Shown: positions 29,116 to 61,424 of the stretch, one piece after another
How the letters are laid out: each line of letters opens with the position of its first letter
Numbering within the stretch: position 1 is the first letter of the stretch
Origin: an uncultured Flavobacteriales bacterium
GTDB taxonomy: Bacteria; Bacteroidota; Bacteroidia; Flavobacteriales_D; Crocinitomicaceae
Assembly: GCA_913054135.1 (NCBI GenBank)
Contig: CAJXJK010000009.1
Location: 62,001-126,000, forward strand
Direction of reading: 5' to 3'
DNA length: 64,000 nt
Made by a program: the position numbers and the translations under genes
The notes under the pieces: generated by a model
Told to the model about the DNA's origin: nothing
Database searches by the model: none
The model's input: the letters and a program-made list of their open reading frames with translations, nothing else

Positions 29116-29207
29116 GTACGAAAAATGTATTAGCACTTTACAAGACCTCACAATTAAGCTTGCTAAACCTTTTAGATTGCAGACTTAATTTGACTAAAAC
29201 AAAGCGT

Positions 29208-35200: not shown

Positions 35201-37346
35201 TGATCCTGCATATACATTGAACATTAATGTTTCAAATGCAGATAGTTCAGAAATTGAATTGAAGCATAATGGGCAGGTGACAGCTTTCACATATAGTAAT
35301 GGTGTAGTGTCAGCTCCAATGACCTTAATTGAAGGAGCAAATAACTTTGTAATCGAAGTTGACGGATGCGAACATGTAGTTGGAACTTCAGCAGTGACTT
35401 ATACATTGCCTTGTACTGACTTAACATTTACTTATGTGGCTCCAGCGAACAGTGTAGCAACCTTAACAGAATCAGCATATGCAATAGAGTTGGCATCAAC
35501 AAATATTACGAATGCGGCGCAAGTGACGGCTACATTAAACGGCACAACAGTGCCAGCAGTTCTTAATACTCAAGATGGTAAAATCTCAATTTCTAACTTA
35601 ACTCTTATTGAAGGAGCAAATTCAGTAATTGTGAACATGGCAAATGATTGCAGTAATCAAATGTTGGAGTATGTAATTACATACAATCCACCAGTGGCTG
35701 CTCCGCTTCCATGTGGACCAAGATTTAATCCTGGAAATTCAGAATGGCAATTCTGTTTGGTAACTCCAAACGGCACATACAATAGAGATGATCTTTCATC
35801 TAACTCTAATTTCACATATAGTGGGCCTGCAACTGCGGCTTATTTCAAGCCTATTGCTGGAGGTGGAGACGCAATAGTTAATGGATCTCCTTATCCAGTA
35901 TCAAACGGTAACTATTACTTGTTTGAAGGAAACTTGACTGTTGATGTGAGTTCTTCTCACCCAGGTTCTATGGGTCATTGGGAGATTTGCATTAATTCAA
36001 ATGCTAATCCGACTTTTGGAAATGGTAACAACAGGCCTGCTAGTCCTTGTGAAACTTCGAATGGGAATGGGAATGGAAACGGAAACGGTCATGGCCAAAC
36101 GTATCTACAACCAGAATTTATCAATGTCAACCCTTCATCATTGAGTGTCAATGTTTCTAAAAAATCATTCACATTCCAGACAAAACTGAAGAATGTAAAT
36201 GAAAAAGCAGACTTAAAGATGTACTTGAATGGTGGTAACATTGACTTCAATTTCAACATGACTTCTAAAGTGATGAATAAGGTAATCACGCTAAGAGAAG
36301 GGGTAAATGAAATCAAAGTTGACGCAACAAATGGTGACAAATCGAAGTCTATCACTTATAGAATCACATACGCGGCACCTATTGTTACTCCGGTGATTAC
36401 TAATGTGAACCCAGCAGGAACTAAGGCAGAGAGTAAAATGACAACCTACACTTTCAAAGCAAAAGTTGAGAACGTGAGTTCTAAAACTGGAGTTAAGATA
36501 AGTGTTAACGGAATCCCGCTTAAATCATTCACATATAGTAGTTCTACCAAGATGGTGACGGCTGTGGTTAGATTAAAGACAGGTAACAACACGATTAAAC
36601 TTGAAGCAGTTAATGGTACTCAAAAAGCTGATAGAATTTATAACATCAGCTACGGAAAAACAGGTACGACTATTAACACGAATGGTAACACAAACGGGGA
36701 TTCAAATGATAACACTGGAGCGAAAAAACCAGTAATCACTAATATGTCTCCAAGTGGTACGTCAATCAATGTTTCGAAGGCAAGTTATATGTTCAAAGCA
36801 AAATTGAGCAATGTGACTTCTAAATCAGGTGTACAGGTTCTTGTAAACGGAAGAGCATTTACTGGCTTCACTTACAGTTCGTCAACGGGGCAACTTACGG
36901 CAGTTGTTTCTTTAAGAAGTGGCTTGAATACCGTGAAAGTAATTGCAAAAAACGGAAAATTAGCTGCTGAAAGAACTTACTCTATCACTTATAAAGCTAA
37001 TACAAGACCAAATCCGAATAACGGAGGAGTGATAAACAATGGAGGGACGAAGCCAACCAATAATGGAACGGTTAAGCCTACAAATAATGGTAAAGACAAA
37101 CCGACAAATTCTGGAACGGTTAAGCCTACAAATACAGGAACAGTTAAGCCAACAAACACTGGAACTGTTAAGCCGACAAACACAGGCACTGTTAAACCAA
37201 CCAATACTGGCACGGTTAAACCAACTAACACTGGAACGGTTAAGCCTACAAATACAGGAACTGTTAAGCCGACTAACACTGGCACTACGAAACCTACAAA
37301 CACAGGAGTCGAAAAAGGAAATAGCCGAAGAGGCGGTGGTTTATAG
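29208..37346 (+). CDS. Giant Ig-like-repeat protein with N-terminal outer-membrane-barrel-like domain
   Basis: About 2,712 residues from ATG 29208, with signal peptide TLLFLTFIVTTGAFSQ (a TTG frame start at 29160 has no signal). Residues about 25-290 look like a small outer-membrane beta-barrel (WFFGINGGATWHT, FSWDLRLRYLHGWW, AASFGAGISYQVTPWMSMGI). An acidic/proline linker follows, then 20 Ig-like repeats (about 313-2165) with the recurring pattern ...NG....F.Y......L.EG.N.I.V...N. A separate Cys-containing domain (about 2168-2280), a (Gly-Asn)n tract and three more Ig-like repeats (about 2300-2600) come next. The end is about eleven GTVKPTN(T) units and a short basic tail. No T9SS sorting domain. 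The repeats resemble glucodextranase-B-like domains. An adhesin or cell-envelope tether is likely; whether the repeats face outward or into the periplasm is unclear. Confidence 0.8.
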   Translation: MKRIFTLLFLTFIVTTGAFSQKSYVNYDKDSRWFFGINGGATWHTRTETDNVIKGGYGFTFGHSFGMRPEKLFSWDLRLRYLHGWWSGQATSQYTLDSTGVSTIPSGYGNSLQTYQDSTGYFVPNFRSQLMSGSLELALNTNRLRENTGWNFQIFGGIGIKGYDTKVDLVDSNNEIYDYDNIGGLTKPNLLSNQDGNYETYVTGSDSEFEVDWAASFGAGISYQVTPWMSMGISHKMTWLRNDNLFDPVISPVGTNKPNDIYHYSSAGLKFHLFGGNHSTKPDDIIEDVTDPNVFDNPNNNITTPVDNTPKQKPIVDIYDPGSSPYTTTSNTFKLLANVHHVDGKQNVTFKQDGNINNNFYYNPATDKFSSNVVLHPGQNIFEITGVNGAGQDYESTIIIYEKEVPQIQPPIVTITNPPNSPHTTSSSTFNFASTVLNVDSKNQIKVYFNGAYMSNFTYSTTSKNLYATLNLQEGTNTITVTATNPAGSDSKTATLIYRKPQVQQPPVVDFITPPVDPFVTSQAAMNITASVLNVTSKNNITVKINGNQTSNFSYNANTKQVNFNVNLNVGANVLEVKGVNNVGQDYETTTIIYKKPEVPKPPIVTFIDPALDPTTVYVSSYNVKAKVLYVDGASDITLKINGIQSYNFSYSTSSKIMNFTTNLNSGANVIEITGTNNAGQDTENTTIVYRRVVPQAPPVVNITYPVSDNQVFNSSNLTLVSSVLNVSSASNIAVLVNGQPTYNFNYNTATKILNLPLTLNEGSNTVKITGTNTAGSDNDTRIIIYKKPVVPAPPTVTYVNPPTSPFLVTQEAFTMTANTTNISSKSQISLLFNGNLVPDQLYTLTSSNQIIYNSTLIEGNNIFEIIVTNNDGSDDAMAIVTYKKAEVPCIIPTVGYIHPVPYSTVNDPNVLIDAQINNYTPGTTIQLVLNGVGQGLMSYNTGTSIAAKAAVLVEGSNAVTVIVTNDCGTNQATFTLNYVAPEAPCVDPMLTPTSMANTTTQSETASVVSGVSEITAASQITVTVNGQNTPFTFDAGTNSISVNDAALSLGNNSIVVTATNDCGSATLTYHIVRKSCDTPIISGSSPAHNSVIETSTMNFSASVQNATQSEIQFIVNGISQAFTFNQQSGLLSAAVDLAVGDNAISIIATNSCGSTRKDFEFVHTLPCESIVVGFVHPTSATATVTESNYSIALHATGTLNSSGVTASLNGTSVAAAYNSITGEVDINNLTLVDGVNTVVVNLTNDCSSETVTYSITYNGCQPPEIEIPGINSGTVVNTSTIDFHAVVQNSNGAGNIQLLLNGQAQSFDFNDQTMLLTSTLVLNEGSNSIILTVNGCETANENINVTYEVPCEPISYSLMQPASNNTTVVSSSFSLSMNLMHVENNQQISATLNGTAVTFTYSAGTNSLSVSDLTLIDGANTIVVTATNDCSSETITYTVQYDGCQEPVITLGSNANSMTTSAYTFNASVTNISSPAGVGVTLNGAAVPFIFNAQNGNISGEVTLAEGANTIVISANGCASDSKTINVAYAIPCDPMVISLSAPSQLETSVADELFAFNLVAQNANTISVKLNGAVIPHTYSNGVINANLTLIDGDNTVIATMANDCSNETKTFTIHHDGCDAPVITTSMNSASSSTATYTFTALISNVDNANQLGLDLNGANVTFTFDPITTELVATMTLTEGQNVITLNANGCASASANINVSYALPCSPVSYSLGTPSTLSQVVNGNTVDINLTVQSADEVSATINGAAVNANYANNIVSINNVPLNEGANTLVVSFSNVCSSETVTYTIESDQCPNSPLITVFNNNVVTTDELYNFTCQILHVDNANDVSVKLNGTVIPSTYVPGTNTLSAPLNLVMGANEVAVTAVGCETTSVVYTVTRESACDPITFTHMIPQTNDTMHVNAPNLFVKINAQNVTQSGVTATLNGAAVNFSFLSGSITVMNKSLVVGSNTLVITMTNECSTSSANFHIEYGVDEPDCDPPVIGFVIPDPVVNDPAYTLNINVSNADSSEIELKHNGQVTAFTYSNGVVSAPMTLIEGANNFVIEVDGCEHVVGTSAVTYTLPCTDLTFTYVAPANSVATLTESAYAIELASTNITNAAQVTATLNGTTVPAVLNTQDGKISISNLTLIEGANSVIVNMANDCSNQMLEYVITYNPPVAAPLPCGPRFNPGNSEWQFCLVTPNGTYNRDDLSSNSNFTYSGPATAAYFKPIAGGGDAIVNGSPYPVSNGNYYLFEGNLTVDVSSSHPGSMGHWEICINSNANPTFGNGNNRPASPCETSNGNGNGNGNGHGQTYLQPEFINVNPSSLSVNVSKKSFTFQTKLKNVNEKADLKMYLNGGNIDFNFNMTSKVMNKVITLREGVNEIKVDATNGDKSKSITYRITYAAPIVTPVITNVNPAGTKAESKMTTYTFKAKVENVSSKTGVKISVNGIPLKSFTYSSSTKMVTAVVRLKTGNNTIKLEAVNGTQKADRIYNISYGKTGTTINTNGNTNGDSNDNTGAKKPVITNMSPSGTSINVSKASYMFKAKLSNVTSKSGVQVLVNGRAFTGFTYSSSTGQLTAVVSLRSGLNTVKVIAKNGKLAAERTYSITYKANTRPNPNNGGVINNGGTKPTNNGTVKPTNNGKDKPTNSGTVKPTNTGTVKPTNTGTVKPTNTGTVKPTNTGTVKPTNTGTVKPTNTGTVKPTNTGTTKPTNTGVEKGNSRRGGGL
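36059..36095 (+). repeat. Gly-Asn hexanucleotide-like tract inside the giant gene
   Basis: A run of GGNAAN-type hexamers (GGGAATGGGAATGGAAACGG...) encodes NGNGNGNGNGHG. It acts as a flexible linker between the Cys-containing domain and the last three Ig-like repeats, and such a tract is prone to slippage. Confidence 0.7.
37047..37310 (+). repeat. 24-bp tandem minisatellite encoding GTVKPTN(T) units
   Basis: About eleven in-frame 24-base units encode the octapeptide TGTVKPTN with variants (NGKDKPTN, SGTVKPTN, TGTTKPTN). Units differ mainly at third codon positions (AAG/AAA, CCT/CCG/CCA, ACA/ACT/ACC), although two are nearly identical. This looks like a stalk or linker under protein-level selection. 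Confidence 0.9.
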
Positions 37347-42669: not shown

Positions 42670-44772
42670 TTAGTTCTTAATGAATTTAATCGTTTGATTA
42701 TTTCCGTCATGCATAACACTCAAGAAGTAAACACCTGCCGGAATCTCATTAGCATCATAATCAATTGTTTTAATACCATTAATCAGCTCCCCGTTAAATA
42801 CATTTGAAATTGTTTGTCCTAATGTGTTCTTCAACTCAACTGAATACATTCCAGCTTTTGCCACATCTAATCGTACAGTGAAGTCATCTTCGGCAGGATT
42901 AGGATAAACAGATAAGTTAAATACATTCTCATTCTCACCCAAATTAGCCATTGCTCCTGATGATATATTAATGTCATCAATAAAAATGTTGTTACCTATG
43001 TCGTTTTCATATTGAATCTTAAACCTGAAGTTCTCTACAAAATATGTTTCACTAATATTGGTAATATCCACTTGAGTCCAATCATCTTCTGCCGGAGAAT
43101 TAAAAGAAGATGACATTACTTCATCACTTAAATCATCATCATGAATATTTTTTCTCAGTACCCATGTCTCTCCACAATCTTTTGAAATATAAAACCTCAA
43201 CCATTCGTCATTTGAAGCTGAACGTTTTTTGTAAGCATATTTAAAATTAAAGACAATGTTATCGGTAGGATCTACACCACTTAAGTCAATTGGACCAGAC
43301 AAAATTTCATCTTTAGATTGATCAGTGTTTCCAAAATTAGCAAGCTTAATGCACTGCGTGCCACTTGAACCAACACCTGTAGCAATATTCCAAGCTACTC
43401 CATCTTCATTTTCTACTAACCAATTTTGATTGTCAGGAATAGAAGAGTAAGTTTCAAATCCTTCAGAATAAGGTAAAGAAATGCCTGGGTTTGCTAAAAC
43501 AATAATGTGTGCAGTCTCGGTAGTAGAAACAGAACTTGATCCGTCAGATACTTCAAGCTCTACATCATATACCCCAGGTGTGTTATAAGTTATAGTTGGA
43601 TTTTGATCAGTTGAAGTTGCAGGTGTACCTCCATCAAACGTCCAATCTCTTGTTGCAATATCAAAATATGATAAGTCAGTAAAATCAACCGTTGAGCCTG
43701 CGCAAATTATTGTCTCTGTTGAGCTGAATTCAGCCGCACACAATTGTGGAGCTGACCCTACACCAGTTGCAATTCCATTAGTAACTCCTCTTAGCGAATC
43801 CATCCACTCAAGGGTATTCATGTTTCCTAACATAATATCAACTTGATCAGCTGAAAACATGTATTGACAAGGAGAATAACTCATGAAGTTTTCCCATTGA
43901 TCAAGAGCGTTAAATCCATATGTGTCATTGGTAGGAATTTGATCACAAGAGTTTTGCGTTTGATTACACGTCCAAAACGCTTCTTGCTGAGGTGGTGTAT
44001 CACAACAGTAATCACCATTATCACTACAATCTTGACTGTGACAACCATCTTGGAAAGTATGTAACAAACCTAAACAGTGTCCTAACTCATGTGTGAACGT
44101 TCTGTCACCATTCGCAGTACCAATGGTACCAAACGCATCATGTCTTATTACAACTCCGTAAGTATTGGCATTACCGAAATATGGGAATTGCGCATAACCC
44201 AAGGTTATTCCTGGGCCTGAACTCTCAATTGAAGATACCACCCAAATATTCATGTAGCTGTCTCTTGGCCATTGATCAAGTCCCCCACCACTATAAGTTT
44301 TAATGTTTTGATATGCATTAATGGTTGCCGGCGAATTTCTTCTTTGAACACCATTGGTACAGTTTCCATTAGGATCAATTTTTGCCAATTCAAACGACAA
44401 TTCTAGAACTCCTACTTCAGGAGCAAAAGGAGCGGTAGCTGTATTCCTTGCGTTTCCAATATCTGGATTCGTTCCGTTATAGTCTTCATTTAATTGTTGA
44501 ATCGCCGATTCAATTTGCTCATATGAGATATTTGAAGCACCACCATCATGAATTACATGTACTACCACAGGAATAATACCGTTTGTCGATCTATCGGTAG
44601 CGATATTCGTTGAACGAATTCTCGCAATTTGCTCTGCCATTAATTGCTCAGCATTGGGAAATTCTTGCTTCAATTCTTCCATATGCTCATCAGTACTGCA
44701 ATATCCGTGTTCTTGAGCGAATGTTCCACTCAAAGCAGAAACAGATAACAATAACGTAAATAATTTTTTCAT
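42670..44772 (-). CDS. Secreted M43 zinc metalloprotease, third of a tandem trio
   Basis: A 700-residue exported protease: signal peptide (LLLSVSALSGTFAQ), a propeptide with Cys25 in HGYCSTDEH, and the zinc motif HELGHCLGLLH starting at about His228. The Met-turn region is QWENFMSYSPC. A PKD domain (DWTFDGGTPATSTDQNPTI) is followed by a MAM/choice-of-anchor-J-like domain (LPYSEGFETYSSIPDNQNW...FIDDINIS). A T9SS sorting domain (VYPNPAEDDFTVRL) ends in IKFIKN. It sits 6 bases after the next paralogue, so the trio is one operon, and this copy keeps the canonical Gly in HExxHxxGxxH. Confidence 0.9.
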   Translation of the reverse strand: MKKLFTLLLSVSALSGTFAQEHGYCSTDEHMEELKQEFPNAEQLMAEQIARIRSTNIATDRSTNGIIPVVVHVIHDGGASNISYEQIESAIQQLNEDYNGTNPDIGNARNTATAPFAPEVGVLELSFELAKIDPNGNCTNGVQRRNSPATINAYQNIKTYSGGGLDQWPRDSYMNIWVVSSIESSGPGITLGYAQFPYFGNANTYGVVIRHDAFGTIGTANGDRTFTHELGHCLGLLHTFQDGCHSQDCSDNGDYCCDTPPQQEAFWTCNQTQNSCDQIPTNDTYGFNALDQWENFMSYSPCQYMFSADQVDIMLGNMNTLEWMDSLRGVTNGIATGVGSAPQLCAAEFSSTETIICAGSTVDFTDLSYFDIATRDWTFDGGTPATSTDQNPTITYNTPGVYDVELEVSDGSSSVSTTETAHIIVLANPGISLPYSEGFETYSSIPDNQNWLVENEDGVAWNIATGVGSSGTQCIKLANFGNTDQSKDEILSGPIDLSGVDPTDNIVFNFKYAYKKRSASNDEWLRFYISKDCGETWVLRKNIHDDDLSDEVMSSSFNSPAEDDWTQVDITNISETYFVENFRFKIQYENDIGNNIFIDDINISSGAMANLGENENVFNLSVYPNPAEDDFTVRLDVAKAGMYSVELKNTLGQTISNVFNGELINGIKTIDYDANEIPAGVYFLSVMHDGNNQTIKFIKN

Positions 44773-44778
44773 TTGATC

Positions 44779-46869
44779 TTATTTCTTAAGTAATTTGATA
44801 GTTTCAAGACGACTATCAGTCTGTATTCTTACAAGATATATTCCTGCACTCAAATCTGCCAAGTCAATCTTAAACTCGTTTGAAGTGGCAATTGAATTTT
44901 GTAAAATCGTTCTAATCACCTTTCCATCAGTGCTCAATAATTGAATTTGGTCAATGTTTTGAGTAGAATTCAATTTTAATATTGCCTCATTAGTTGCCGG
45001 ATTAGGGTACAGAGTATAATTCAATTCTTCTTCGGCAATACTGGTCATTGAAGCCGGATACAGATTAATATTATCTATGTAAATATTGTTTCCTCCGTCA
45101 TTTTCAAATCTGAATTTGAATCTAAAATCTGAAACATAATAAGAGCTGCTAATATTAGAGATGTTCTCAGTATACCAGTGAGCGGCATCATTAGGTGTAT
45201 AAGCAGATCCTGCCGTAACTGTGCTTAGATCATCACCATGAATATTCTTTCGTAAAACCCATGTTTCTCCGCAATCTTTAGAGATATAAAACTTGAGCCA
45301 TTCATCATTTGAATCATTCAATTTGCGGTAAGCATAATTAAAGTTGAATACGATATCATCAGAAGGATCAACACCTGACAAATCAATTGTAGCAGAAATC
45401 AATTCGTCTGCTGAACCGTCAGTATTTCCGTAGTTTGCAAGTTTGGCTGAGGAAGAAGTATTGGTTGCTCCTGTGGTATTATCCAACGACCATGCTAATC
45501 CATTTTCGTCAAGTATTACCCAATTCTCATTATCTGGAATTGAGGTAACATCTTCAAATCCTTCAAAATAAGGAAGGTCTTCTCCATCACTGTTTAAAAC
45601 CGCAACATAATTAGACTCAATAACGGTTTCGTCATTTGTCCCATCAGTTACTTCTAAAGTCACCGAAAAGTTTCCAGACGAATTGTAAGTCACAGTAGGA
45701 TTTGCATCAGAAGATGTTGAAGGTGTTCCACCTTCAAATGTCCAAGTTCTTGAGGTCACATTATGATAAGAATCATCAGTAAAAGTTACTGTTTGACCTA
45801 AACAAACTGCTTGAGTATTTGATGAGAACTGTGCCAAACATAAATCACCAGGACCGTTAGTTCCTGTTGCATTTAAATTGCTTGCTGTCCACAAATTATT
45901 TCTTTCAGCAGTATTATCATTAAGAGCGGCATGCATACGTGCTACCTGACCTGTCGTAAACATTCGTCTACAACTGCCAGTGTACTCCATGTTATTTTGA
46001 ACATTATTAACACCAGAACCGCAAGACTCTCCATCTAAATCACATCCTGACCATCCTATAGAAAGAGGAGTATCTGTCACTCCATCATCCATACCGCAAT
46101 TACCAGCATCACCTGGAGTATTAGAACTACCCCAACAGTGTTGGATATTCAACCAGTGCGCGCACTCATGACTTATAGTTCTCCTTCTTCCAGTAGAACC
46201 GGTTCCAATTGTTCCGCAATAATCGTGTCTCAGATATATTCCACCCTCCATACTTGTTGCAGGATACCAACCTGCAGGATAATTTGTATATCCAGCTGCA
46301 CCATTTGGATCTGCACAAATAAATATGTTCAAATATCTATTTTGAGGCCAAGTTCCATGCAAGGCAGCTACTTCATCAATAATTCCGTCACCGCCATCAT
46401 GGTTAGTATTCTCAGATACAGTTCTTGTAATTCCTGGATGACATTCTCCCTGAGGATTTTTAGTTGCCAACCTGAATTCAATATCTGGATTTCCAATCAC
46501 AGCAGTGAACTCAGTAACTACATCAGACAAATCAGTGTTTGTACCTGAGTAATCTTCATTTAACTTCTCGAGAGCATCCATAATCTGGGCATCCTCAATG
46601 TTTTCAGGACCACCATTGTGAACCACATGAAACACAACCGGGATCACATAAGATGAACGTGCATTTGCATCAAATTCATGAGCTAAATAATACTCATAAA
46701 AAGTCTGAAAATCATTTTGCTCTTGAATGATTTGATCTTCGAATTCAGGGTGTTCAAGAAGATACTTCTCTTGCTCAATATTATTCAAACAATGAACATG
46801 AACATCACTTTCTTGAGCTACTGAATGTAGTGTCAGTAAGGACAGGGCAACAACAAATGCGCTCTTCAT
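44779..46869 (-). CDS. Secreted M43 zinc metalloprotease, second of a tandem trio
   Basis: A 696-residue paralogue of its neighbours with the same domain order: signal peptide (ALSLLTLHSVAQ), propeptide with Cys27 in VHVHCLNN, M43 catalytic domain, PKD, choice-of-anchor-J-like domain, T9SS sorting domain (TLYPNPATNEAIL...IKLLKK). The zinc motif is HECAHWLNIQH from about His234: all three zinc-binding histidines are kept, but Cys-Ala replaces the usual xG after HE and Asn replaces the usual Gly. The start codon overlaps the upstream stop by one base (TAATG), indicating coupled translation. Confidence 0.9.
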   Translation of the reverse strand: MKSAFVVALSLLTLHSVAQESDVHVHCLNNIEQEKYLLEHPEFEDQIIQEQNDFQTFYEYYLAHEFDANARSSYVIPVVFHVVHNGGPENIEDAQIMDALEKLNEDYSGTNTDLSDVVTEFTAVIGNPDIEFRLATKNPQGECHPGITRTVSENTNHDGGDGIIDEVAALHGTWPQNRYLNIFICADPNGAAGYTNYPAGWYPATSMEGGIYLRHDYCGTIGTGSTGRRRTISHECAHWLNIQHCWGSSNTPGDAGNCGMDDGVTDTPLSIGWSGCDLDGESCGSGVNNVQNNMEYTGSCRRMFTTGQVARMHAALNDNTAERNNLWTASNLNATGTNGPGDLCLAQFSSNTQAVCLGQTVTFTDDSYHNVTSRTWTFEGGTPSTSSDANPTVTYNSSGNFSVTLEVTDGTNDETVIESNYVAVLNSDGEDLPYFEGFEDVTSIPDNENWVILDENGLAWSLDNTTGATNTSSSAKLANYGNTDGSADELISATIDLSGVDPSDDIVFNFNYAYRKLNDSNDEWLKFYISKDCGETWVLRKNIHGDDLSTVTAGSAYTPNDAAHWYTENISNISSSYYVSDFRFKFRFENDGGNNIYIDNINLYPASMTSIAEEELNYTLYPNPATNEAILKLNSTQNIDQIQLLSTDGKVIRTILQNSIATSNEFKIDLADLSAGIYLVRIQTDSRLETIKLLKK

Positions 46870-49016
46870 TACTTCTTGATCAACTTCACAGTTTGTACGT
46901 TTCCTTCGCTTTCGATTCTAACAATATAAATTCCTTTTGCTAGCTCAGAAGTATTGTACTCAAAGTTGTTTAATCCTTTAGCTAAAGTACCTTGGTAAAT
47001 AGAAGCAACTTGTTGTCCCATTCCATTCAATACTGAAACATTATAATCTTGACCGTCAACAGCTGAAAGTTGAATGTTTGTAATATCAGTTACCGGATTA
47101 GGATATACATTCAATGTTGTAGCTTCCTTTTTCTCAACTACATCAGACATTGAAGAAGGATACATATTGATGTTATCAATGTAGATGTTGTTTCCGTTAT
47201 CGCTTTCAAACACAAATTTGAATCTGAAATCAGCTTCGTAGTATGAAGAACTGATATTCGTAATATCAACCGTGTACCAATCGTCGTCACCAGCAGGTGT
47301 ATAAGAACTTGAAGCAGTAACAGAACTTAAATCATCATCATGAATATTTTTTCTTAATACCCAAGTTTCACCACAATCTTTTGAAATGTAGAATTTCAAC
47401 CATTCATCATTTGAAGAAGTTCTTTTTCTGTAAGCATAATCAAAAGTGAAAATCATATCATCACTTGGATCAACTCCTGATAAATCAATAGTACCTGAAA
47501 TTAATTCATCATCAGATGATTCAGAGTTATTGTAGTTTAAAAGCTTTGCTGATTTTTGAGAACCTTGAGAACCCGCAGTAGATGTCAAAATCCACGGATC
47601 ACTTCCAGCTTGGTCTACAATCATCCAGTTTTCATCATCAGGAATATTACTAATTGTTTCAAAGCCTTCAGAATAAGGCAATGACTTGCCAGGGTCAGCT
47701 AAGACGATAACAAAATTGTTTTCAGTTGACGAAACATCATTTGAACCATCAGAAACGGTTAAGCTAACAGGGTAAACTCCTGGAGTATTATAAGTAATAA
47801 CAGGATTTTCATCAGATGATGTTGCAGGTGTACCTCCTGTAAATATCCAACTTCTAGTTTGGACATTATGAAATGACTCATCATAAAAATCAACTGACTG
47901 CCCTGCGCAAATGTATTTGTAGTTAGATGAAAATTCTGCCTCGCAAATATCTCCAGGTGCATCTGTCCCTGTCGCCGCTAAATTTGAAGCAGTCCACAAA
48001 TTATTTCTACCCGCCGTACTTGAATTAAGAGCCGTCTGAACTCTTGCCGCTTGACCTTGAGTAAACATTGTTCTACAACCAGCATAATCCATAACATTCT
48101 GAACATTATCAAGAGAACCACAAGTGTTTGAACTAGTGTTACATGAAAATGAACCTTCACAATTTGGTGTATCAGTCACGCCGTCGTCATCACCACAATT
48201 AGCTGCTTCTCCTGGAGAATTACTCCCTCCCCAGGTATGACTTAAATTTAACCAGTGACCTACTTCATGACTTAATACGTGTCGGTAAGATGATGTACTT
48301 GTCCCAATTGAACCAACGGCAGTATTATCCATATAAATAGATCCACCCATGCCTGATTGGTTGTACCAATTACCAGGCGTATTCGTATAACCTAATGTGA
48401 TTCCCCCGCCAGTGCTAGTGAATTTCTTGACTATAAAAATATTCATGTACTTGTTTTGAGGCCAATTGCCATGTGCAGATTGAACAGCAGTTCTAACATC
48501 ACCATTGTCTCCAACATCATGTTCACCAGCACCTGCTACATAAGTTCTTGTTATCCCTTTATGACAATTTCCAGATGGGTCTCTTGTAGCAAGAACAAAT
48601 TCTACATCAGCATTTCCAATAATGCTAGTAAAAGCTGGAATTGTATTAGAACCATCATCATTGGTCATTGTAAAGTCTTCGTTAATCCTAAGAATAGCAT
48701 CATAAATCTGCTCGTCAGAAATATTTTCAGACCCATTCTCATGAACTACATGAACTACAACCGGAACAGTATAGGAAGATCTAGCATATGGATCATAATC
48801 TTGAAGGAACTGTTGGTATTCATTCTCAAAATTTGCCTGATCTATAATATGCTGAGCTTCTAATTCAGGATTCTGTAAAAAGACCTTCTTCATTTCAACG
48901 TTATTCTCACATTCATGACTAACAGCCTGATTATGTGAGTGGTCGTGTTGAACAGTTGTTTGTGCAATGGCTCCAATAGCTAGGAGTCCTAATGACAATA
49001 GCGTAACTTTTTTCAT
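46869..49016 (-). CDS. Secreted M43 zinc metalloprotease, first of a tandem trio
   Basis: About 715 residues from ATG 49016 (MKKVTLLSLG; ATG 49031 is also possible). Signal peptide (LLAIGAIAQ), then a His-rich propeptide with QHDHSHNQAVSHEC (Cys36). The catalytic motif HEVGHWLNLSH is at about residue 250, with NVMDYAGC as Met-turn region. PKD, choice-of-anchor-J-like and T9SS sorting domains follow (NVYPNPVTDITNIQL...VKLIKK). This is the promoter-proximal gene of the three-gene unit. The enzyme is expected on the surface or in the medium; the target is unknown. Confidence 0.9.
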   Translation of the reverse strand: MKKVTLLSLGLLAIGAIAQTTVQHDHSHNQAVSHECENNVEMKKVFLQNPELEAQHIIDQANFENEYQQFLQDYDPYARSSYTVPVVVHVVHENGSENISDEQIYDAILRINEDFTMTNDDGSNTIPAFTSIIGNADVEFVLATRDPSGNCHKGITRTYVAGAGEHDVGDNGDVRTAVQSAHGNWPQNKYMNIFIVKKFTSTGGGITLGYTNTPGNWYNQSGMGGSIYMDNTAVGSIGTSTSSYRHVLSHEVGHWLNLSHTWGGSNSPGEAANCGDDDGVTDTPNCEGSFSCNTSSNTCGSLDNVQNVMDYAGCRTMFTQGQAARVQTALNSSTAGRNNLWTASNLAATGTDAPGDICEAEFSSNYKYICAGQSVDFYDESFHNVQTRSWIFTGGTPATSSDENPVITYNTPGVYPVSLTVSDGSNDVSSTENNFVIVLADPGKSLPYSEGFETISNIPDDENWMIVDQAGSDPWILTSTAGSQGSQKSAKLLNYNNSESSDDELISGTIDLSGVDPSDDMIFTFDYAYRKRTSSNDEWLKFYISKDCGETWVLRKNIHDDDLSSVTASSSYTPAGDDDWYTVDITNISSSYYEADFRFKFVFESDNGNNIYIDNINMYPSSMSDVVEKKEATTLNVYPNPVTDITNIQLSAVDGQDYNVSVLNGMGQQVASIYQGTLAKGLNNFEYNTSELAKGIYIVRIESEGNVQTVKLIKK

Positions 49017-49198
49017 GTAAAAATTTTTCATGGCGCAAAGAGAGATGTCGGTTTCTCAGCTCTGCTGATTAAATGGGTGACTCAATTTACCAATTTATGG
49101 GCGTATTGAGTTATACAATATAGTGAAATGCAGTAGTTATTGAGTGAACGGTAATTACAAGCGGTAGTAAAAAAATGTAAACGGAATATTATGCGCGC

Positions 49199-55027: not shown

Positions 55028-55432
55028 TTAATTGAATTCTGCCTTTTCAATCAATTCTTCAATAATTTGAACAGTGAGTGGCTTTTCAACAAACTCGTCA
55101 ACACATTCATAAGAATTAATTTTCTTGATATCATCAGGGTGTACTGATGAAGAAATCATCATGATTGTTGTCTTAGAATGGCACTCTTCTGGCAGCTTTT
55201 GATACTCGTCAAGAAACTCAAAACCATTCATAACCGGCATATTTATGTCCAAAAATATCAGGTCTAAAACAATTCCGGCTTTTGAGAACTCATCAATTTT
55301 ATAAAGTCCTTCTTGGCCATTTAAGGCTATATGAATGTTCACTACAGCATTGATTTTATTGAGCATATGCTTAACCAAAAAATTATTTGTTTGGTCGTCA
55401 TCAATCAAAAGTATGTTTTGAAACTTTTGCAT
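55028..55432 (-). CDS. Single-domain response regulator
   Basis: The 134-residue protein is one CheY-like receiver: acidic residues Asp11-13 (LLIDDDQTNN), phospho-acceptor Asp62 in LIFLDINMPVMNG, the conserved Ser/Thr in MMISSS and Lys in VEKPL. There is no output domain, so it acts through protein contacts or as a phosphorelay shuttle. It is the last gene of a four-gene operon and starts one base after the stop of the histidine kinase, its likely partner. Confidence 0.93.
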   Translation of the reverse strand: MQKFQNILLIDDDQTNNFLVKHMLNKINAVVNIHIALNGQEGLYKIDEFSKAGIVLDLIFLDINMPVMNGFEFLDEYQKLPEECHSKTTIMMISSSVHPDDIKKINSYECVDEFVEKPLTVQIIEELIEKAEFN

Positions 55433-55433
55433 T

Positions 55434-57245
55434 CTATTTTTTTTCTACTGGAAAGTTAATAAAATAAGTTAAGCCTTTTTGAGATTCACTTTCTAAACTA
55501 ACTTCACCATCATTTTTTGAGATCAATTTTTTAATGATGTACATCCCAACTCCTGTGCCCTCAATAGAACTATCAGCTGTAAATCTTTGGAACATATTAA
55601 AGAGCTTTTCCTCATGTCTTTTCAAGTCAATTCCTTGACCGTTATCACTGTATGTAATCTCACATCTACCCTTATTTTCAACAGCTTTTATTGAAATATT
55701 TAAAGCATTCTCTTTTGATCGATACTTCATGCTATTTGTGAAAAGATTCTGAAAAACACTCGTTAATTCGGTATCTGATGCGTACACTTTGCTTTGCTTA
55801 ATATCCATTGAAACCGTGGCACCAATCCTTTCCAACTCTTCACGATATTCGGTCACCAAAGCATCAAATATGTTTTTAATATTCACTGATGATTTAATCT
55901 CGTCAACTCTTTCAATCCTAGTCAGTTCAAGCATGTCGGTCACAGTATTCTCTAGTCGGCTTGTAGATAAATCAAGATTTTCAAATAAATCTGGCAATAT
56001 TGGATTCGCCTCTTTATCTGAATATTCATTCAACATGCCAATCATGGTTTTCATATTCACAATTGGCGCTTTCAAATCGTGCGATACTCGGTAAGTAAAA
56101 CTGTCTAGGGAATGATTCAATTCTATGAGCTCTTCATTCTTCTTATGTAATCTGTATTCGCTTTTTCTTCTCTTCTTATTTGACCTGAACATGAAGACTA
56201 TAAAGAAGATGGCTAAAATCCCAAAAATGATTGATATCCAAGAAATAATTTGCTGTCTTTCTAAGTCAGAAAGCTGCTTACCCAAAATTTCATTTTGATC
56301 TTTGATTAGTGTTTTTTGATCGTCAATTTCTGATAGGTTCTCATTCAATAATTGCTGTTGTTCTTCTAATTTTTTAGTTTGAATGGTTACGTTATCCAGC
56401 TGATCTTGATAAGTCTTTTTTAACTCATTATTCGCAGCTGTTTGCTCATCAATATCTTCAAGAAGGGCATTCAATTTCTTGAGTTGCCTTTGAATATCAG
56501 CCTCTTGTTTTCGAATCTCTGCATTTTGCTCTTCAACCAACGCATTTTTTGACCTCAATTCGTCTAAAGTCTCGCTCAGTATTTTTTGTTGTTCTTCAAT
56601 TGCATCTTTTTGGCTCTTTATCTTTTTTGCCAACTTATCGAGCTCGGCTTGTTGATTTTGAACAGTGGCAATCTCTTCTTGCAAACGATTATAGAGTTTA
56701 TCCCAGTCAACAGTGCTTTGGATAGAGAAAGAAGTAAGAGCCGGGTCAATAAGTAATGATGCTTTATTGATTTTCTCTTCATTTATTTCAAATTGAAAGT
56801 CTTCGTCAATCTCAATAAAGTTGATCATTGATTCATGAAAGGGAAATCCTTCGGTTACCAAAAGTGCATTATTAGAGTACATTTCATCCAAAATAGGATC
56901 TAATTCCACCTTGTAATTCTTGTAGATGTAGAGTATATCCAAATTTTGAATTTCAGATCGAGATTGAATTGATTTGATTTTTACATCAAGACCTTTAATC
57001 TTTTTTTGTGCTGCCGTTTTCGAAAACTCTTCAAATAAAGCTTCATCCTTTTCACCCAATAAAGCAATCGTGAATTCATTTTGATTTTCTATGTTTTCCC
57101 AACTTATATACTTCGTAAAGTTGTAGATGTAATTTACCCTTTGCTTGTTTCTTATGGCCTCACTTTCATCCTGTGAAAAACTCAAAAATCCACTGAGAAA
57201 AGTGGAAAGCAGGAACAGAGAATATTTTAATTTAAGGGGTTTCAA
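55434..57245 (-). CDS. Sensor histidine kinase with N-terminal YfiR-like domain
   Basis: 603 residues from TTG 57245. After the signal peptide (LLSTFLSGFLSFSQ) comes a YfiR/HmsC-like (DUF4154) domain (about 28-180; VNYIYNFTKYISWEN, FTIALLGE, FEINEEKINKASLLIDPAL). A long Gln/Glu/Lys coiled coil (about 190-330) and one transmembrane helix (about 333-354) follow. HisKA has His389 in SHDLKAPI and the HATPase (about 490-600) has YSDNGQGID and GTGVGMYIIKK. In Pseudomonas, free YfiR is a periplasmic inhibitor of the cyclase YfiN; here the same fold is fused to a kinase. The gene starts one base after the receptor's stop. Confidence 0.92.
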   Translation of the reverse strand: MKPLKLKYSLFLLSTFLSGFLSFSQDESEAIRNKQRVNYIYNFTKYISWENIENQNEFTIALLGEKDEALFEEFSKTAAQKKIKGLDVKIKSIQSRSEIQNLDILYIYKNYKVELDPILDEMYSNNALLVTEGFPFHESMINFIEIDEDFQFEINEEKINKASLLIDPALTSFSIQSTVDWDKLYNRLQEEIATVQNQQAELDKLAKKIKSQKDAIEEQQKILSETLDELRSKNALVEEQNAEIRKQEADIQRQLKKLNALLEDIDEQTAANNELKKTYQDQLDNVTIQTKKLEEQQQLLNENLSEIDDQKTLIKDQNEILGKQLSDLERQQIISWISIIFGILAIFFIVFMFRSNKKRRKSEYRLHKKNEELIELNHSLDSFTYRVSHDLKAPIVNMKTMIGMLNEYSDKEANPILPDLFENLDLSTSRLENTVTDMLELTRIERVDEIKSSVNIKNIFDALVTEYREELERIGATVSMDIKQSKVYASDTELTSVFQNLFTNSMKYRSKENALNISIKAVENKGRCEITYSDNGQGIDLKRHEEKLFNMFQRFTADSSIEGTGVGMYIIKKLISKNDGEVSLESESQKGLTYFINFPVEKK

Positions 57246-57246
57246 C

Positions 57247-59946
57247 TTAGATGGTAAAATTTAACTTTAGAAAATAAGAAGCTCCTCTTATACCAAACTG
57301 CTGAACCCTTCTGCTATACACAAAGTTTCCTGAACTTGTATTGGCAGAATGGTAATGTTTGTCAGGATAAATATTAAATAAGTTATTGCCGCCCAATGAA
57401 ATGGTAAAGTAACTGTTCACTTCAAATCCAATCAAGGCGTCCGTTAGAATTTTTGCCGAAAAGGTTTGGTCACGACTTTCAACTTGACCTGTAAAATCAT
57501 TCGTCTGCCAATCGGCTTGATCTGCATCAGAAGGATGTATGTACTGAACTTCTCCGAATCTCGTGTTCTTCAGTAGAAAACTCCACCGATTCAGTGTGTA
57601 ATTGAGAGTTAAAATCGTTTTCGTTCTAGGTTGAGCAACCTCAAGTCTCGATATTTCTTCTCTGTTAAACAATAGATCCTCAGCACCCTGCAATATTCCC
57701 GTTGTCTCAATAGAACCAAGAACATTCGTTTTTGAATAGTTGAATGCTCCCCTTGCTTTGAATAAGCCTTTTCCCAATTTAATTGAATAGTCGGCTCCAA
57801 CATCAAAGCCGAATGTTTCAGTATTAATACCATTCAAAAAGAACTGAGCAGTACTTGCACCAACTGGATTCAGTATAGACTCAAAGCCCGATCCGAGTCG
57901 ACCAGAAAGCACTATTCTGTCTTTTATATGTATGTAATAAGCATCTGCAGAGAGCGCAAAGTTTTCGAGTAATTTGGCGGTAAACCCGAAAGCAACATTA
58001 TCCGAAGTTTCAGGCATCAAGCCAGTAGTACCAAAAGCTAAAGTTGTTGCGCTTTCATTATTAAAAGTTCCAACTTGAAGAGCTTCTCCGTTCACGAATT
58101 GTGTACCCACATTTGAGAAATAGATTTGATGTAAAGAAGGTGCTCTGAATCCAGTATTATATGATCCTCTAATCGAAAACTTATCATTGAACTTAAATCG
58201 ACTAGCTACTTTCCAGCTCAAATTGCTACCAAATAGGCTGTAGTTCTCGAATCTCGCAGCAGCAGCAATCAACCATTTATCAGTCATGTTCATTTCAAAA
58301 TCTGCATAAGCTGCAAAATTGGTTCTGTTTTTTCTTAAGGCGTTTTGAGGCTGAAAGCCAGGGAAAACTTGAATCCCTGTAGCTTTAGCAGAGCCATCAG
58401 AAGTGGTGTCTCCGCCATCCATCCAAGAGGCAGCCTCACCGGCAGTAATTTCATAACGTTCAACCCTAAATTCTGAACCAAACCCCATATTAAATCCTTT
58501 CAAAAACCAAACTGAATCAAGCTTTTTAGAAAAGTCAAAATTGGTAATGTTTTGATTATAATCAAATCCCCCTGCATAAGCAGTTGTTGGGGATGCAGGA
58601 CCCATTGAAGCATTGTTTGAGTTATTAACAGTGAAATCAAAGCTGTTATGACCTGATGAATTTGAAAGATCAATCAACCAGCCATTTTTTTGATTGCGCA
58701 TTCCCATTGTGATTGAATTATCTACAATGTCCGTCTGGATCTCAGGTGAAAACCCATTCGGATGAAATTCATCTACCACTTTCTCTTCTTGTCTTGGTAA
58801 TCGATAAAAACCACGACCTTTTCCTTGTCTGTAGCTTATCCCTCCGTTTGCATAAAATTCTGCCTTATTTTTCATAGGCAACAATAAATTACCGAAAGAT
58901 GATGCATCAAATGCCGCAGCCGAACCAATTTCCATTATTCTTTGATCTTCAAAAGGAGTTTTATTCCAAAAATCATTTTGAGTAATCAGGGCCTGATCAA
59001 GAGAATCATCAAGGCTATAAATATTTCCTGTATAATTTCCAGCTCTATTGTACGATTCCCTTTGCATAAATTCAGAATTCACATTTAAGAATCCGCCATT
59101 TTCAAATTCTAAGCCATAATTAGCATTTAGGTTAACTTCTTGACCATCCCCTGCGAGGGTTGGATTGTAAGCAGCATTTATGGAGAAAACATTCGTTTGC
59201 TCTTTTAATATGATATTTATTACTCCCGCAATGGCATCCGAACCGTATTGTGCTGAAGCTCCATCTCTCAAAATTTCAATATGATCAATTGCTGAAAGTG
59301 GTATTGCATTAAAATCAGTACCAACAGCTCCTCTACCAACTGTTCCATTTACGTTAATCAAAGAGCTAGAATGTCTTCTTTTTCCATTTACAAAAACCAA
59401 TAATTGATCGGGCCCCAAACCTCTTAATGTCCCGGGATCAACATGATCGGTTCCATCTGAAATAGTTTGTCTTGTAGAATGAAAAGAAGGCACATGAAAA
59501 TGTAAGAATTGGCTTAATGTCATTTGGGTTGAGAGCGAAAAATCAGCCGGAGAAATAATATCAACTGCAGCAGTACTCTCCAGCTGTGACTTAGGTGCTG
59601 ACCTAGTTCCAACAGAGGCATTAGCGTCAACTGGACTAACTGAACTCAACACAAAATCACATGAATTTTCTAAGCTATTGAAAGAAATCGAAATTGTTTT
59701 TTCCTCACTTTTATACAACAAATATGAAGCAAAAATTTTATAAGTACCTGGCTTCAACTCAATATTGTAATCACCATTAATGTCACATTTCGATACTAAC
59801 TCTTCTCCTTCAATAGTAATTTTTGCTCCTGGCAAAGGTCCAAACTCATCTGATACTTTTCCTTTTATTGTTCCCAGCTGACCAAAGGACAATGCAGAAA
59901 AAGAAAGGAATAATGGTAGCAAAATATATTTTGACAAACTTCTCAT
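57247..59946 (-). CDS. TonB-dependent receptor within a two-component operon
   Basis: About 899 residues from ATG 59946 (MRSLSKYILLPLFL; an in-frame GTG at 59964 would add six residues). A signal peptide ending ALSFGQ precedes a carboxypeptidase-regulatory domain (about 23-105). The plug (TLRGLGPDQLLVFVNGKRRH, IEILRDGASAQYGSDAIAGVINI) precedes a 22-strand-type barrel (GSYNTGFRAPSLHQ) ending in SYFLKLNFTI. The plug has the VNGKRRHSSSLINVNGTVGRG signature. The substrate is unknown. It lies between a response regulator (gap 22 bases) and the YfiR-kinase (gap 1 base), so transport and signalling are probably linked. Confidence 0.9.
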   Translation of the reverse strand: MRSLSKYILLPLFLSFSALSFGQLGTIKGKVSDEFGPLPGAKITIEGEELVSKCDINGDYNIELKPGTYKIFASYLLYKSEEKTISISFNSLENSCDFVLSSVSPVDANASVGTRSAPKSQLESTAAVDIISPADFSLSTQMTLSQFLHFHVPSFHSTRQTISDGTDHVDPGTLRGLGPDQLLVFVNGKRRHSSSLINVNGTVGRGAVGTDFNAIPLSAIDHIEILRDGASAQYGSDAIAGVINIILKEQTNVFSINAAYNPTLAGDGQEVNLNANYGLEFENGGFLNVNSEFMQRESYNRAGNYTGNIYSLDDSLDQALITQNDFWNKTPFEDQRIMEIGSAAAFDASSFGNLLLPMKNKAEFYANGGISYRQGKGRGFYRLPRQEEKVVDEFHPNGFSPEIQTDIVDNSITMGMRNQKNGWLIDLSNSSGHNSFDFTVNNSNNASMGPASPTTAYAGGFDYNQNITNFDFSKKLDSVWFLKGFNMGFGSEFRVERYEITAGEAASWMDGGDTTSDGSAKATGIQVFPGFQPQNALRKNRTNFAAYADFEMNMTDKWLIAAAARFENYSLFGSNLSWKVASRFKFNDKFSIRGSYNTGFRAPSLHQIYFSNVGTQFVNGEALQVGTFNNESATTLAFGTTGLMPETSDNVAFGFTAKLLENFALSADAYYIHIKDRIVLSGRLGSGFESILNPVGASTAQFFLNGINTETFGFDVGADYSIKLGKGLFKARGAFNYSKTNVLGSIETTGILQGAEDLLFNREEISRLEVAQPRTKTILTLNYTLNRWSFLLKNTRFGEVQYIHPSDADQADWQTNDFTGQVESRDQTFSAKILTDALIGFEVNSYFTISLGGNNLFNIYPDKHYHSANTSSGNFVYSRRVQQFGIRGASYFLKLNFTI

Positions 59947-59968
59947 ACTCTTCGGTAAATTCACTTTA

Positions 59969-60415
59969 TCACAGCCTTGGAGATCTTGAAAATACTGTTT
60001 TTGTTTCAGATTCGTTAAACTCTTTTTGCAGATGTTCTAAAAACTCATCTTTTTTAAGTGGTTTTTTCAATAGAACTGAACTTAATTTTTGTTTTTGAAA
60101 ACGCTCGAAATCTTTTTGCATATCCGTATGACTCAACATGAAAATTTTAGGTTGAAAATCGTCATCAAACATCTCATCCACTTCATCAATCCATTCGAAG
60201 CCATCAATTACCGGCATCATAATGTCTAATAAAATTAAATCAGGAAACTGAAGGTTTGATTCTCTCTCTTTTTCTACAAATTCTAGCGCCTTTTCAGGGT
60301 CGTGAAACACAAATATTTCACCTATTTCAGGTATCTCTTTTAGAACAGTTTTGGTGATGAATATATCAACAGTAGAGTCGTCAATGATGCATACAGAGTA
60401 TTTTTTCTTTTTCAT
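59969..60415 (-). CDS. Single-domain response regulator (first gene of the receptor/kinase operon)
   Basis: A 148-residue CheY-like receiver from ATG 60415: acidic pair Asp12-Asp13 (CIIDDSTVD), phospho-acceptor Asp64 in LILLDIMMPVIDG, Ser in FMLSHT and Lys in LLKKPL. No DNA-binding domain. The longer frame from 60484 adds a stretch unlike any receiver. On the minus strand TATATTTG (60446-60439) is a good -7 box 24 bases before the ATG, though no -33 box was found. It differs clearly from the second regulator at 55028. Confidence 0.9.
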   Translation of the reverse strand: MKKKKYSVCIIDDSTVDIFITKTVLKEIPEIGEIFVFHDPEKALEFVEKERESNLQFPDLILLDIMMPVIDGFEWIDEVDEMFDDDFQPKIFMLSHTDMQKDFERFQKQKLSSVLLKKPLKKDEFLEHLQKEFNESETKTVFSRSPRL

Positions 60416-60438: not shown

Positions 60439-60446
60439 CAAATATA
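60439..60446 (-). promoter_or_regulatory. Candidate -7 box of the regulator-receptor-kinase operon
   Basis: TATATTTG on the minus strand matches TAnnTTTG and lies 24 bases before the start codon of the first gene. A convincing -33 element was not found, so the call is tentative. Confidence 0.4.
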
Positions 60447-60526: not shown

Positions 60527-61189
60527 TCAAAGAATTTGAATCTCGGTTCTTCTATTTTGAGCTTTACCGTTTTCAGTTGTATTTTCAGCAACTGGAGCGC
60601 TTTCGCCAAAACCTTTCGTACTCAATCTTGATGCCGAGATACCTTTTGAAATCAGATATTTTTTAACTGAATTGGCTCTATTTTTTGATAGAGTGAGGTT
60701 AGCGCTTTCTTCTCCAACGTTATCAGTGTGTCCGTCAATCCTGATCTTCACCTCTGGTTTGAGTTTCAAATAATCTACCAATTCGTCTAATACCTTGAAC
60801 GAATTCGTTTTTATATCACTTTTATTGGTTGCAAAATTCAAATTACTCAAAGTGAAAGAGCGCGCTTCTTCTATCATCACTTCCATCCACATTTCGTTAT
60901 AAAATTGATTGGGTCCAAGCTCTGGAATTTCAAGAGTAGAGTAATCCATGGCTTCCCCGATACTTTTTAATTGAATGTCATATTTACCTGCAGGTAAGTC
61001 AACTTTAAATTTACCTTCATCATTTGACACTCCTTTGAATTGAATTTTAGAACTCTGATTCACGAAAATCACTTGTTCACCTTCAAGAGCTATCTTCTCA
61101 TAATTCATAACTGAAACACTCAAAGGTGCAGTTTGACAAAATGATAAGGTTTGAATAATTAAAGCTGAAAATAAGATGAGAAATTTCAT
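60527..61189 (-). CDS. OmpA-family protein with N-terminal regulatory-like domain
   Basis: A 220-residue exported protein: signal peptide (FSALIIQTLSFCQ), a short carboxypeptidase-regulatory-like domain (FKGVSNDEGKFKVDLPAGKYDIQLKS, about 30-90) and an OmpA C-terminal domain (about 100-220). The latter has RIDGHTDNVGEESANLTLS, NRANSVKKYLISKG and GFGESAPVAEN...NRRTEIQIL. OmpA domains bind peptidoglycan. No barrel is present, so it probably sits in the periplasm. The start is ATG 61189; the longer frame to 61231 lacks a signal at its N-terminus. It is separate from the four-gene operon downstream. Confidence 0.88.
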   Translation of the reverse strand: MKFLILFSALIIQTLSFCQTAPLSVSVMNYEKIALEGEQVIFVNQSSKIQFKGVSNDEGKFKVDLPAGKYDIQLKSIGEAMDYSTLEIPELGPNQFYNEMWMEVMIEEARSFTLSNLNFATNKSDIKTNSFKVLDELVDYLKLKPEVKIRIDGHTDNVGEESANLTLSKNRANSVKKYLISKGISASRLSTKGFGESAPVAENTTENGKAQNRRTEIQIL

Positions 61190-61424
61190 AATGTTACGTG
61201 TTGGTTTACTATTTAATGTAACACCAACCAAAAAGTAACTTTAGAAAATCGTTTGAAATGTGATTTGTGAATTAAGCCTGAGACAATCTCTAGAAAGCGG
61301 TCATGTCTCAAGCTTTAACTCTACCCTTCTCCTCACACCATACATAACGTAATTTCAAAATTGGTTACATTTTTAATTATCTTGGAATCACTTTTTGGGG
61401 GATTAGGTAAGCAAAAACATTTGG

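Follow-up and report, generated by a model that had tools for sequence, protein, structure and literature searches.

Genes and domains of the block

This study concerns a four-gene block in a 64,000-nucleotide stretch of contig CAJXJK010000009.1 (assembly GCA_913054135.1) from an uncultured Flavobacteriales bacterium, hereafter called the window. The block encodes, in this order and all on the minus strand, a single-domain response regulator (RR-A), a TonB-dependent receptor (TBDR), a histidine kinase with a YfiR-like head, and a second single-domain response regulator (RR-B). The genes are separated by 22, 1, and 1 bases, the first gap shrinking to 4 bases with the GTG start of the receptor. 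Order, strand, and gaps had been given in this way by a first-pass annotation of the sequence and were confirmed by the coordinates. Lengths are given in amino acids (aa).

60439..60446, minus strand: candidate -7 promoter element of the Bacteroidota type (TAnnTTTG), a pattern match 24-31 bases ahead of RR-A
59969..60415, minus strand: RR-A, single-domain response regulator and first gene of the block, 148 aa, ATG start, PF00072 only
57247..59964, minus strand: TBDR, 905 aa from GTG 59964, alternative start at ATG 59946
55434..57245, minus strand: YfiR-coiled-coil-transmembrane-histidine kinase, 603 aa, TTG start, by Pfam and aligned orthologues
56730..57140, minus strand: YfiR/HmsC-like head, kinase residues 36-172, PF13689 (DUF4154), E 1.9e-22
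56253..56705, minus strand: periplasmic rod, residues about 181-331, heptad period 3.50, proline-free, 22 nm if helical
56193..56249, minus strand: single membrane helix, residues 333-351, by hydropathy
55443..56105, minus strand: HisKA (381-445, with the invariant H389) and HATPase_c (492-601), by Pfam and alignment
55028..55432, minus strand: RR-B, single-domain response regulator, 134 aa, PF00072 only

The consensus TAnnTTTG is taken here to be that of the Bacteroidota -7 element; the match lies in an AT-rich stretch.

For the window proteins, Pfam matches were accepted at E up to 0.001. At this threshold, the receptor consists of CarbopepD_reg_2, Plug, and TonB barrel domains and did not match STN, the signalling domain of FecA-type transducers. 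Its scores fell far under the cut-offs of the NCBIfam siderophore and B12 receptor models, and its best-matching stretch against solved receptors was confined to the plug region. The kinase head scored 80.4 bits with PF13689 over a curated cut-off of 24.9, and the rod is a heptad-periodic, proline-free stretch of about 151 residues, so that the YfiR/HmsC-like sensor and long coiled coil of the first-pass annotation both stand, as do its two bare receivers. The phospho-acceptor histidine H389 is invariant across eight aligned orthologues. CHASE8, HAMP, GGDEF, and periplasmic PAS were not matched in the window kinase by Pfam. Among the block proteins, neither FecR nor a sigma factor was found with Pfam and NCBIfam, and neither a propeller or Y_Y_Y sensor nor a fused DNA-binding domain with Pfam.

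Conservation of the receptor-kinase pairing in fused and split relatives

A TBDR gene lay immediately upstream in all 16 intact genes in which a YfiR head, a coil, and a kinase are fused, i.e., the window gene and 15 found elsewhere. Ten of these belong to the order-level set (the window, L062-L068, L104, and L108) and six to the phylum-level set (L098-L102 and L194); L104 nearly duplicates L067, and in L108 the contig ends within the TBDR. A receiver gene directly followed the fused kinase in 15/16 loci, the exception being L102 with a PIG-L gene in between. At the order level, window included, the combination of an upstream TBDR and a downstream single-domain receiver of the RR-B type occurred in 10/10 loci, and an RR-B orthologue directly followed the kinase in all nine loci besides the window. 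The TBDRs upstream of the six phylum-level fusions were identified by Pfam. Gaps between TBDR and kinase measured 0-60 bases in the 15 loci tabulated, and the junctions between kinase and receiver ranged from overlap to 38 bases apart, with overlaps of 38 (L064) and 134 (L099) arising from naive longest-frame starts. In contrast, among the standalone YfiR genes of this order (those at the best-scoring loci, with flanks of 1.5 kb), 1 of the 28 that were readable had a TBDR upstream. Because of this difference (16/16 against 1/28), the adjacency of receptor and fused kinase exceeds chance. The earlier suggestion that these two genes belong together is thus borne out by the neighbourhood survey.

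Chance neighbourhood is barely credible as an explanation of the block. It could appeal to the rarity of the fused genes, as a PF13689 frame of more than 600 aa occurred in at least 8 of 399 genomes of the order (source genome included), and to RR-A, which is known at this position from the window only; the linkage of receptor and fused kinase in 16/16 loci speaks against it. For the receptor, the kinase, and RR-B, chance is already refuted, and it remains only for RR-A.

PF13689 matched in 188 of the 399 genomes of the order, and most of the matches listed were short standalone frames. The six phylum-level fusions came from sensor-profile searches of 395, 296, and 245 genomes (overlapping sets), and L104 and L108 from an alignment-based contig search, a single-protein query having given no match. 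When the full-length kinase was searched against 59 relatives, the window gene was the only one among the matches listed that matched along its whole length; the others listed were the catalytic halves of other kinases. An N-terminal match in G044 was rejected as an orthologue, being a SpoIIE fusion by Pfam. In G891, a TBDR-YfiR pair stands at the end of one contig and a kinase at the start of another, which is consistent with the pattern and was kept outside the count. The source genome (4.05 Mb, 24 contigs) contains PF13689 once more, in a standalone gene elsewhere (G000:C3). Three genes follow it on its strand (locus L070:3148-10425), encoding a 335-aa protein that Pfam did not match, a SpoIIE protein of 609 aa, and a 1295-aa protein with Reg_prop, Y_Y_Y, guanylate cyclase, and HD domains.

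The same partners also occur with YfiR as a separate gene. Among 15 chosen standalone YfiR loci of the phylum, the order TBDR-YfiR-kinase was found in nine (L197, L198, L201, and L203-L208), eight of which had a receiver gene next (exception L201). In the remaining loci, the TBDR lay downstream of YfiR in two and was absent in four, one of them at a contig end. Across 34 classifiable short YfiR frames from deduplicated phylum-level loci (1.5 kb), a TBDR was upstream in 16, downstream in 5, and absent in 13; the upstream cases include L180, which is the broken G891 gene. The arrangement reaches the Verrucomicrobiota, where TBDR-YfiR-kinase was found in L150. In the Opitutales locus L148:3154-14179 (JAJFLR010000086.1), three tandem TBDR-YfiR pairs precede one CHASE8 hybrid kinase that has two receivers; a single kinase thus seems to collect the inputs of several receptor-YfiR pairs.

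The separate kinases carry a different front end from the fused ones. CHASE8, which we take to be the Pfam equivalent of the periplasmic PAS domain of YfiN, was above its cut-off in 11/11 tested separate kinases that follow a TBDR and YfiR, and HAMP was matched in the same 11, that of L148 falling below the cut-off. Like YfiN, on this equation, the split relatives thus retain CHASE8-HAMP. A twelfth separate kinase (L202) has no adjacent TBDR and no CHASE8. Neither domain was matched by Pfam in the seven fused kinases tested (the window, L098-L102, and L194).

Phylogenies place the two forms in shared lineages. In the YfiR tree, 15 fused kinases fall on one side of a branch (96/92), together with two SpoIIE fusions that were not counted in the group. 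In the receptor tree, fused L101 and L194 cluster with split L197, L198, and L205 (100), and fused L099 and L100 with split L203 (100). Over 411-412 aligned positions, fused L101 shares 66, 64, and 61% identity in its cytoplasmic half with split L197, L198, and L205, respectively. Approximately unbiased (AU) tests rejected both a single clade for the fused TBDRs (p 7e-36) and a single YfiR clade for L101, L194, L197, L198, and L205 (p 0.0002), the groups having been named after the trees were seen; the TBDR tree has long branches, L102 foremost. Since some fused and split systems share a receptor clade and cytoplasmic halves that are 61-66% identical, the YfiR-rod front end stands in for soluble YfiR plus CHASE8-HAMP. 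The simplest reading would be that a front end of YfiR, rod, and membrane helix arose once and then replaced soluble YfiR and CHASE8-HAMP in several receptor-kinase lineages; replacement may also have run in the reverse direction. Over all 27 pairs, YfiR and TBDR distances were correlated (r 0.86, 0/5000 permutations as high), near copies being included.

The same front end also occurs on another output. Four fusions of a YfiR head, coil, and membrane helix to a SpoIIE phosphatase were identified by Pfam (L069:9454-11154, L113:1862-3871, L114:7920-9818, and L115:7806-9848).

Rod, head, and proposed signalling across the envelope

The rod between YfiR and the membrane helix spans 139-152 residues in 15/15 measured TBDR-linked fusions, corresponding to 20.6-22.6 nm as a helix, with ends set by our own anchor rule. 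All 15 rods are proline-free, and 14 show a period of 3.50-3.52. In the sixteenth fusion (L194), the distance from YfiR to the membrane helix is 187, within the band of 181-194. AlphaFold2, run with 17 aligned sequences, predicted a single helix over kinase residues 181-370, with a mean predicted local distance difference test score (pLDDT) of 86 and a predicted template modelling score (pTM) of 0.46; block values were 87-95 across most of the rod. At the order level (10 sequences), mean identity was 35% in the rod and 55% in YfiR, and the 151 columns of the rod contained no gap column.

The predicted fold of the head supports its assignment. Its 15 best Foldseek matches in the PDB were all YfiR (E 1.5e-6 to 4.6e-5), and the next matches were to a substrate-binding protein of Rhodothermus marinus (E up to 3.8e-4). 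With the sensor profile, searches of PDB sequences reached YfiR only at E about 0.009, among mostly unrelated coiled coils.

In Pseudomonas aeruginosa, YfiR represses an inner-membrane cyclase, and YfiB draws YfiR to the outer membrane; the cyclase YfiN consists of periplasmic PAS, HAMP, and GGDEF domains (PMC3375315). YfiBNR and its proteobacterial relatives (AwsXRO, TpbB, and HmsCDE) resemble the block in that YfiR links a partner in the outer membrane with a signalling enzyme of the inner membrane. They differ in that the linked outer-membrane gene of the block encodes a TBDR rather than the lipoprotein YfiB, a histidine kinase replaces the diguanylate cyclase, and YfiR forms the N-terminus of the kinase on a long rod, without a separate soluble YfiR and with CHASE8-HAMP gone. 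The first-pass annotation had placed a kinase where the cyclase would stand. This agrees with the CHASE8-HAMP kinases of the split relatives and with print, as YfiR/YfiN[PAS] systems with sensor-kinase outputs were reported in 2012 (Malone et al., PMC3375315 section 12). In those divergent systems, the YfiN-like periplasmic domain under YfiR control is likewise attached to a histidine kinase, and a Thauera example combines two YfiR homologues with a hybrid kinase. That section mentions neither a TBDR nor a YfiR-kinase fusion, and the word TonB is absent from the main text of the article. Thalassolituus oleivorans also has consecutively numbered loci for a YfiR-like periplasmic protein and a TBDR (TOL_0243/TOL_0244, NF053591/NF053590), TOL_0244 being up sevenfold on n-C28 alkane versus Tween 80 (PMC6304351). 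However, the window proteins score far below the NCBIfam cut-offs of this pair (62 of 125 and 29 of 645 bits, respectively). Kinase outputs of YfiR/YfiN are therefore already known; a TBDR-YfiR-kinase operon, a YfiR-kinase fusion, or a swap of front ends was not found described among the matches listed from the open-licence literature, judged by title and start of the abstract.

Two further systems share single traits with the block. In cell-surface signalling of the FecA-FecR-FecI type, the state of a TBDR is relayed to a regulator in the inner membrane, as proposed here; in contrast, the block receptor lacks an STN match, and neither FecR nor a sigma factor is part of the block. A kinase next to a TonB-dependent transporter is likewise seen in Bacteroidota with the hybrid two-component regulators of SusC/SusD loci, whereas the block has neither their propeller/Y_Y_Y sensor nor their fused DNA-binding domain.

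With a probability of roughly 0.55, the block is read as a trans-envelope sensory module of the YfiBNR type, in which the TBDR takes the role of YfiB, the kinase that of YfiN, and the tethered YfiR head probably touches the receptor. The TBDR would sit in the outer membrane and the kinase, presumably as a dimer, in the inner membrane, with its YfiR head carried on a coiled coil of about 22 nm. The Gram-negative periplasm is roughly as wide as this rod is long, no measurement having been found for these organisms, and since the two lengths agree, the head could reach the periplasmic face of the receptor. Binding of a ligand by the receptor, or its TonB-driven movement, may then capture, release, or twist the head. 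This change would travel inward, down the helix and through the membrane into HisKA, altering autophosphorylation, and the phosphate would pass to RR-B and probably to RR-A. In split operons, a soluble YfiR would shuttle between the receptor and CHASE8, a movement that the scheme predicts; in the fused form, the head would be held at the tip of the rod and feel the receptor directly. That relatives keep receptor and kinase side by side suggests such direct reading.

A narrower version of the proposal is held tentatively, at a little under even odds. Here, the kinase would be a molecular ruler spanning the periplasm, its YfiR head docked under a specific TBDR and reporting the conformational or TonB-loaded state of that receptor to the kinase, with one-piece and two-piece devices exchanged on the same receptor lineages. 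If so, it would represent a contact-based receptor kinase acting across two membranes. The one-piece form with its near-constant rod, beside split forms on the same receptor and kinase lineages, bears on how TonB-dependent receptors without STN could signal and on how YfiR bridges the envelope, and amounts to a natural experiment that makes receptor-kinase contact directly testable by cross-linking and changes in rod length.

Several observations weigh against the reading as a YfiBNR-like module. L102 lacks the 3.5 period and has the PIG-L gene ahead of its receiver gene. In the predicted structure, pLDDT is 59 at the joint of head and rod and falls from 79 to 51 towards and past the membrane. 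The YfiR domain is gapless as well (150 columns, order level), and the gapless rod was therefore dropped as special evidence. None of the four SpoIIE fusions has an adjoining TBDR, and their rods measure 86, 141, 141, and 177 residues. Rod length as a divider of TBDR-linked from unlinked fusions was rejected, the values overlapping with 139-152, and rod length alone is no proof of a receptor partner, since fusions without a TBDR carry similar rods. Within the six phylum-level fused pairs, YfiR and TBDR distances were uncorrelated (r 0.25, 115/720 permutations as high).

The main rival makes the head a periplasmic ligand sensor, with the TBDR importing a compound, YfiR binding it, and the kinase reporting uptake, for which contact with the receptor is unnecessary. 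This is unlikely and yet keeps real weight, because the YfiB-binding site of P. aeruginosa YfiR also accommodates vitamin B6 or L-Trp (PMC4887326) and the next structural matches of the head after YfiR are to a substrate-binding protein; the SpoIIE fusions, which carry rods beside no TBDR, fit it too. However, a rod of 139-152 residues in every measured TBDR-linked fusion is not obviously needed for a soluble ligand, and the outer-membrane partner in YfiBNR is a protein (PMC3375315).

Receivers and the limits of the block

The four genes had been proposed as one unit with two receivers. This interpretation is partly supported: the pairing of receptor and kinase (16/16) and the receiver behind it (15/16) hold across relatives, whereas RR-A was found only in the window. 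Of the 15 other fused loci, 14 have the position upstream of the TBDR visible (L108 is cut there), and none of the 14 carries a single-domain receiver in that place, so the two competing receivers of the first-pass annotation are not supported as a general design. In four loci of one genus (L062, L063, L065, and L066), this position holds a frame of 109-126 aa instead, without a Pfam match in the two tested. RR-A sits on a long branch, its placement not being firm; the nearest group is that of RR-B (35-50 bits), and RR-A may on these grounds derive from an old duplication.

Three congeners lack the whole block at the site. In G001 and G003, the OmpA-family gene that precedes the block in the window and the 1150-aa gene that follows it lie 101 and 93 bp apart, respectively; in G002, the same two genes are separated by a Y-family polymerase gene (Pfam IMS). 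No second PF13689 match was found in G001, G002, or G003. Thus, each of the four genomes either has or lacks RR-A, receptor, kinase, and RR-B as a set, and RR-A belongs to the block that these congeners lack as a whole. The pattern fits gain as well as loss.

The OmpA-family gene (window 60527-61231) shares the strand of RR-A and lies 111 bases upstream of it. The head might read something else near the outer membrane or peptidoglycan, such as envelope stress or a YfiB-like OmpA protein of this kind, with the TBDR as a merely co-regulated target. YfiB is itself a Pal-like, peptidoglycan-binding partner (PMC3375315), and the SpoIIE fusions exist without a TBDR. This alternative is nevertheless improbable, as the same gene is found at this position in each of the three congeners that lack the block and has 31 matches in the source genome. 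Its protein scored 92 bits, below the YfiB cut-off of 128. Among the classified genes, none of the other 13 fused loci with an intact upstream region has an OmpA gene directly upstream (no OmpA profile search was made there), and the constant partner is the TBDR in 16/16.

Additional genes surround the module in Crocinitomix. The three loci L067, L068, and L104 carry a 229-aa regulator upstream of the TBDR, with LytTR by Pfam in L067, and a protein of 115-129 aa after RR-B; in L067 and L068 this protein is followed by a double-receiver frame (285 or 272 aa). The protein of 115-129 aa has no Pfam match and shares an invariant HKLKS stretch in its three sequences. Its AlphaFold2 model (pLDDT 86) best matched HPt proteins in the PDB (probability up to 1.00, TM-score up to 0.73), with no E-value below 0.001 and designed four-helix bundles also listed. 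In L067:463-7549 and L068:5723-12826, a regulator in the LytTR position upstream is thus combined with HPt-like and double-receiver genes downstream, which would suit a module feeding into a phosphorelay. In the source genome, HPt gave one match above the cut-off, inside an 806-aa frame elsewhere.

The Crocinitomix regulator also bears on a simple feedback operon, in which the kinase regulates its own TBDR gene and gene order is regulatory convenience. LytTR lies just upstream of the TBDR and could drive it, and both regulators of the window lack an output domain. Feedback of this kind is very unlikely, since it leaves unexplained why YfiR, split or fused, stays between the receptor and the catalytic part of the kinase across lineages.

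Elsewhere in the window, a 2728-aa frame starting from TTG occupies 29160-37346, with a frame carrying a receiver domain next, at 37677. Three successive minus-strand frames of about 700 aa each, nearly touching, lie at 42670-49031.

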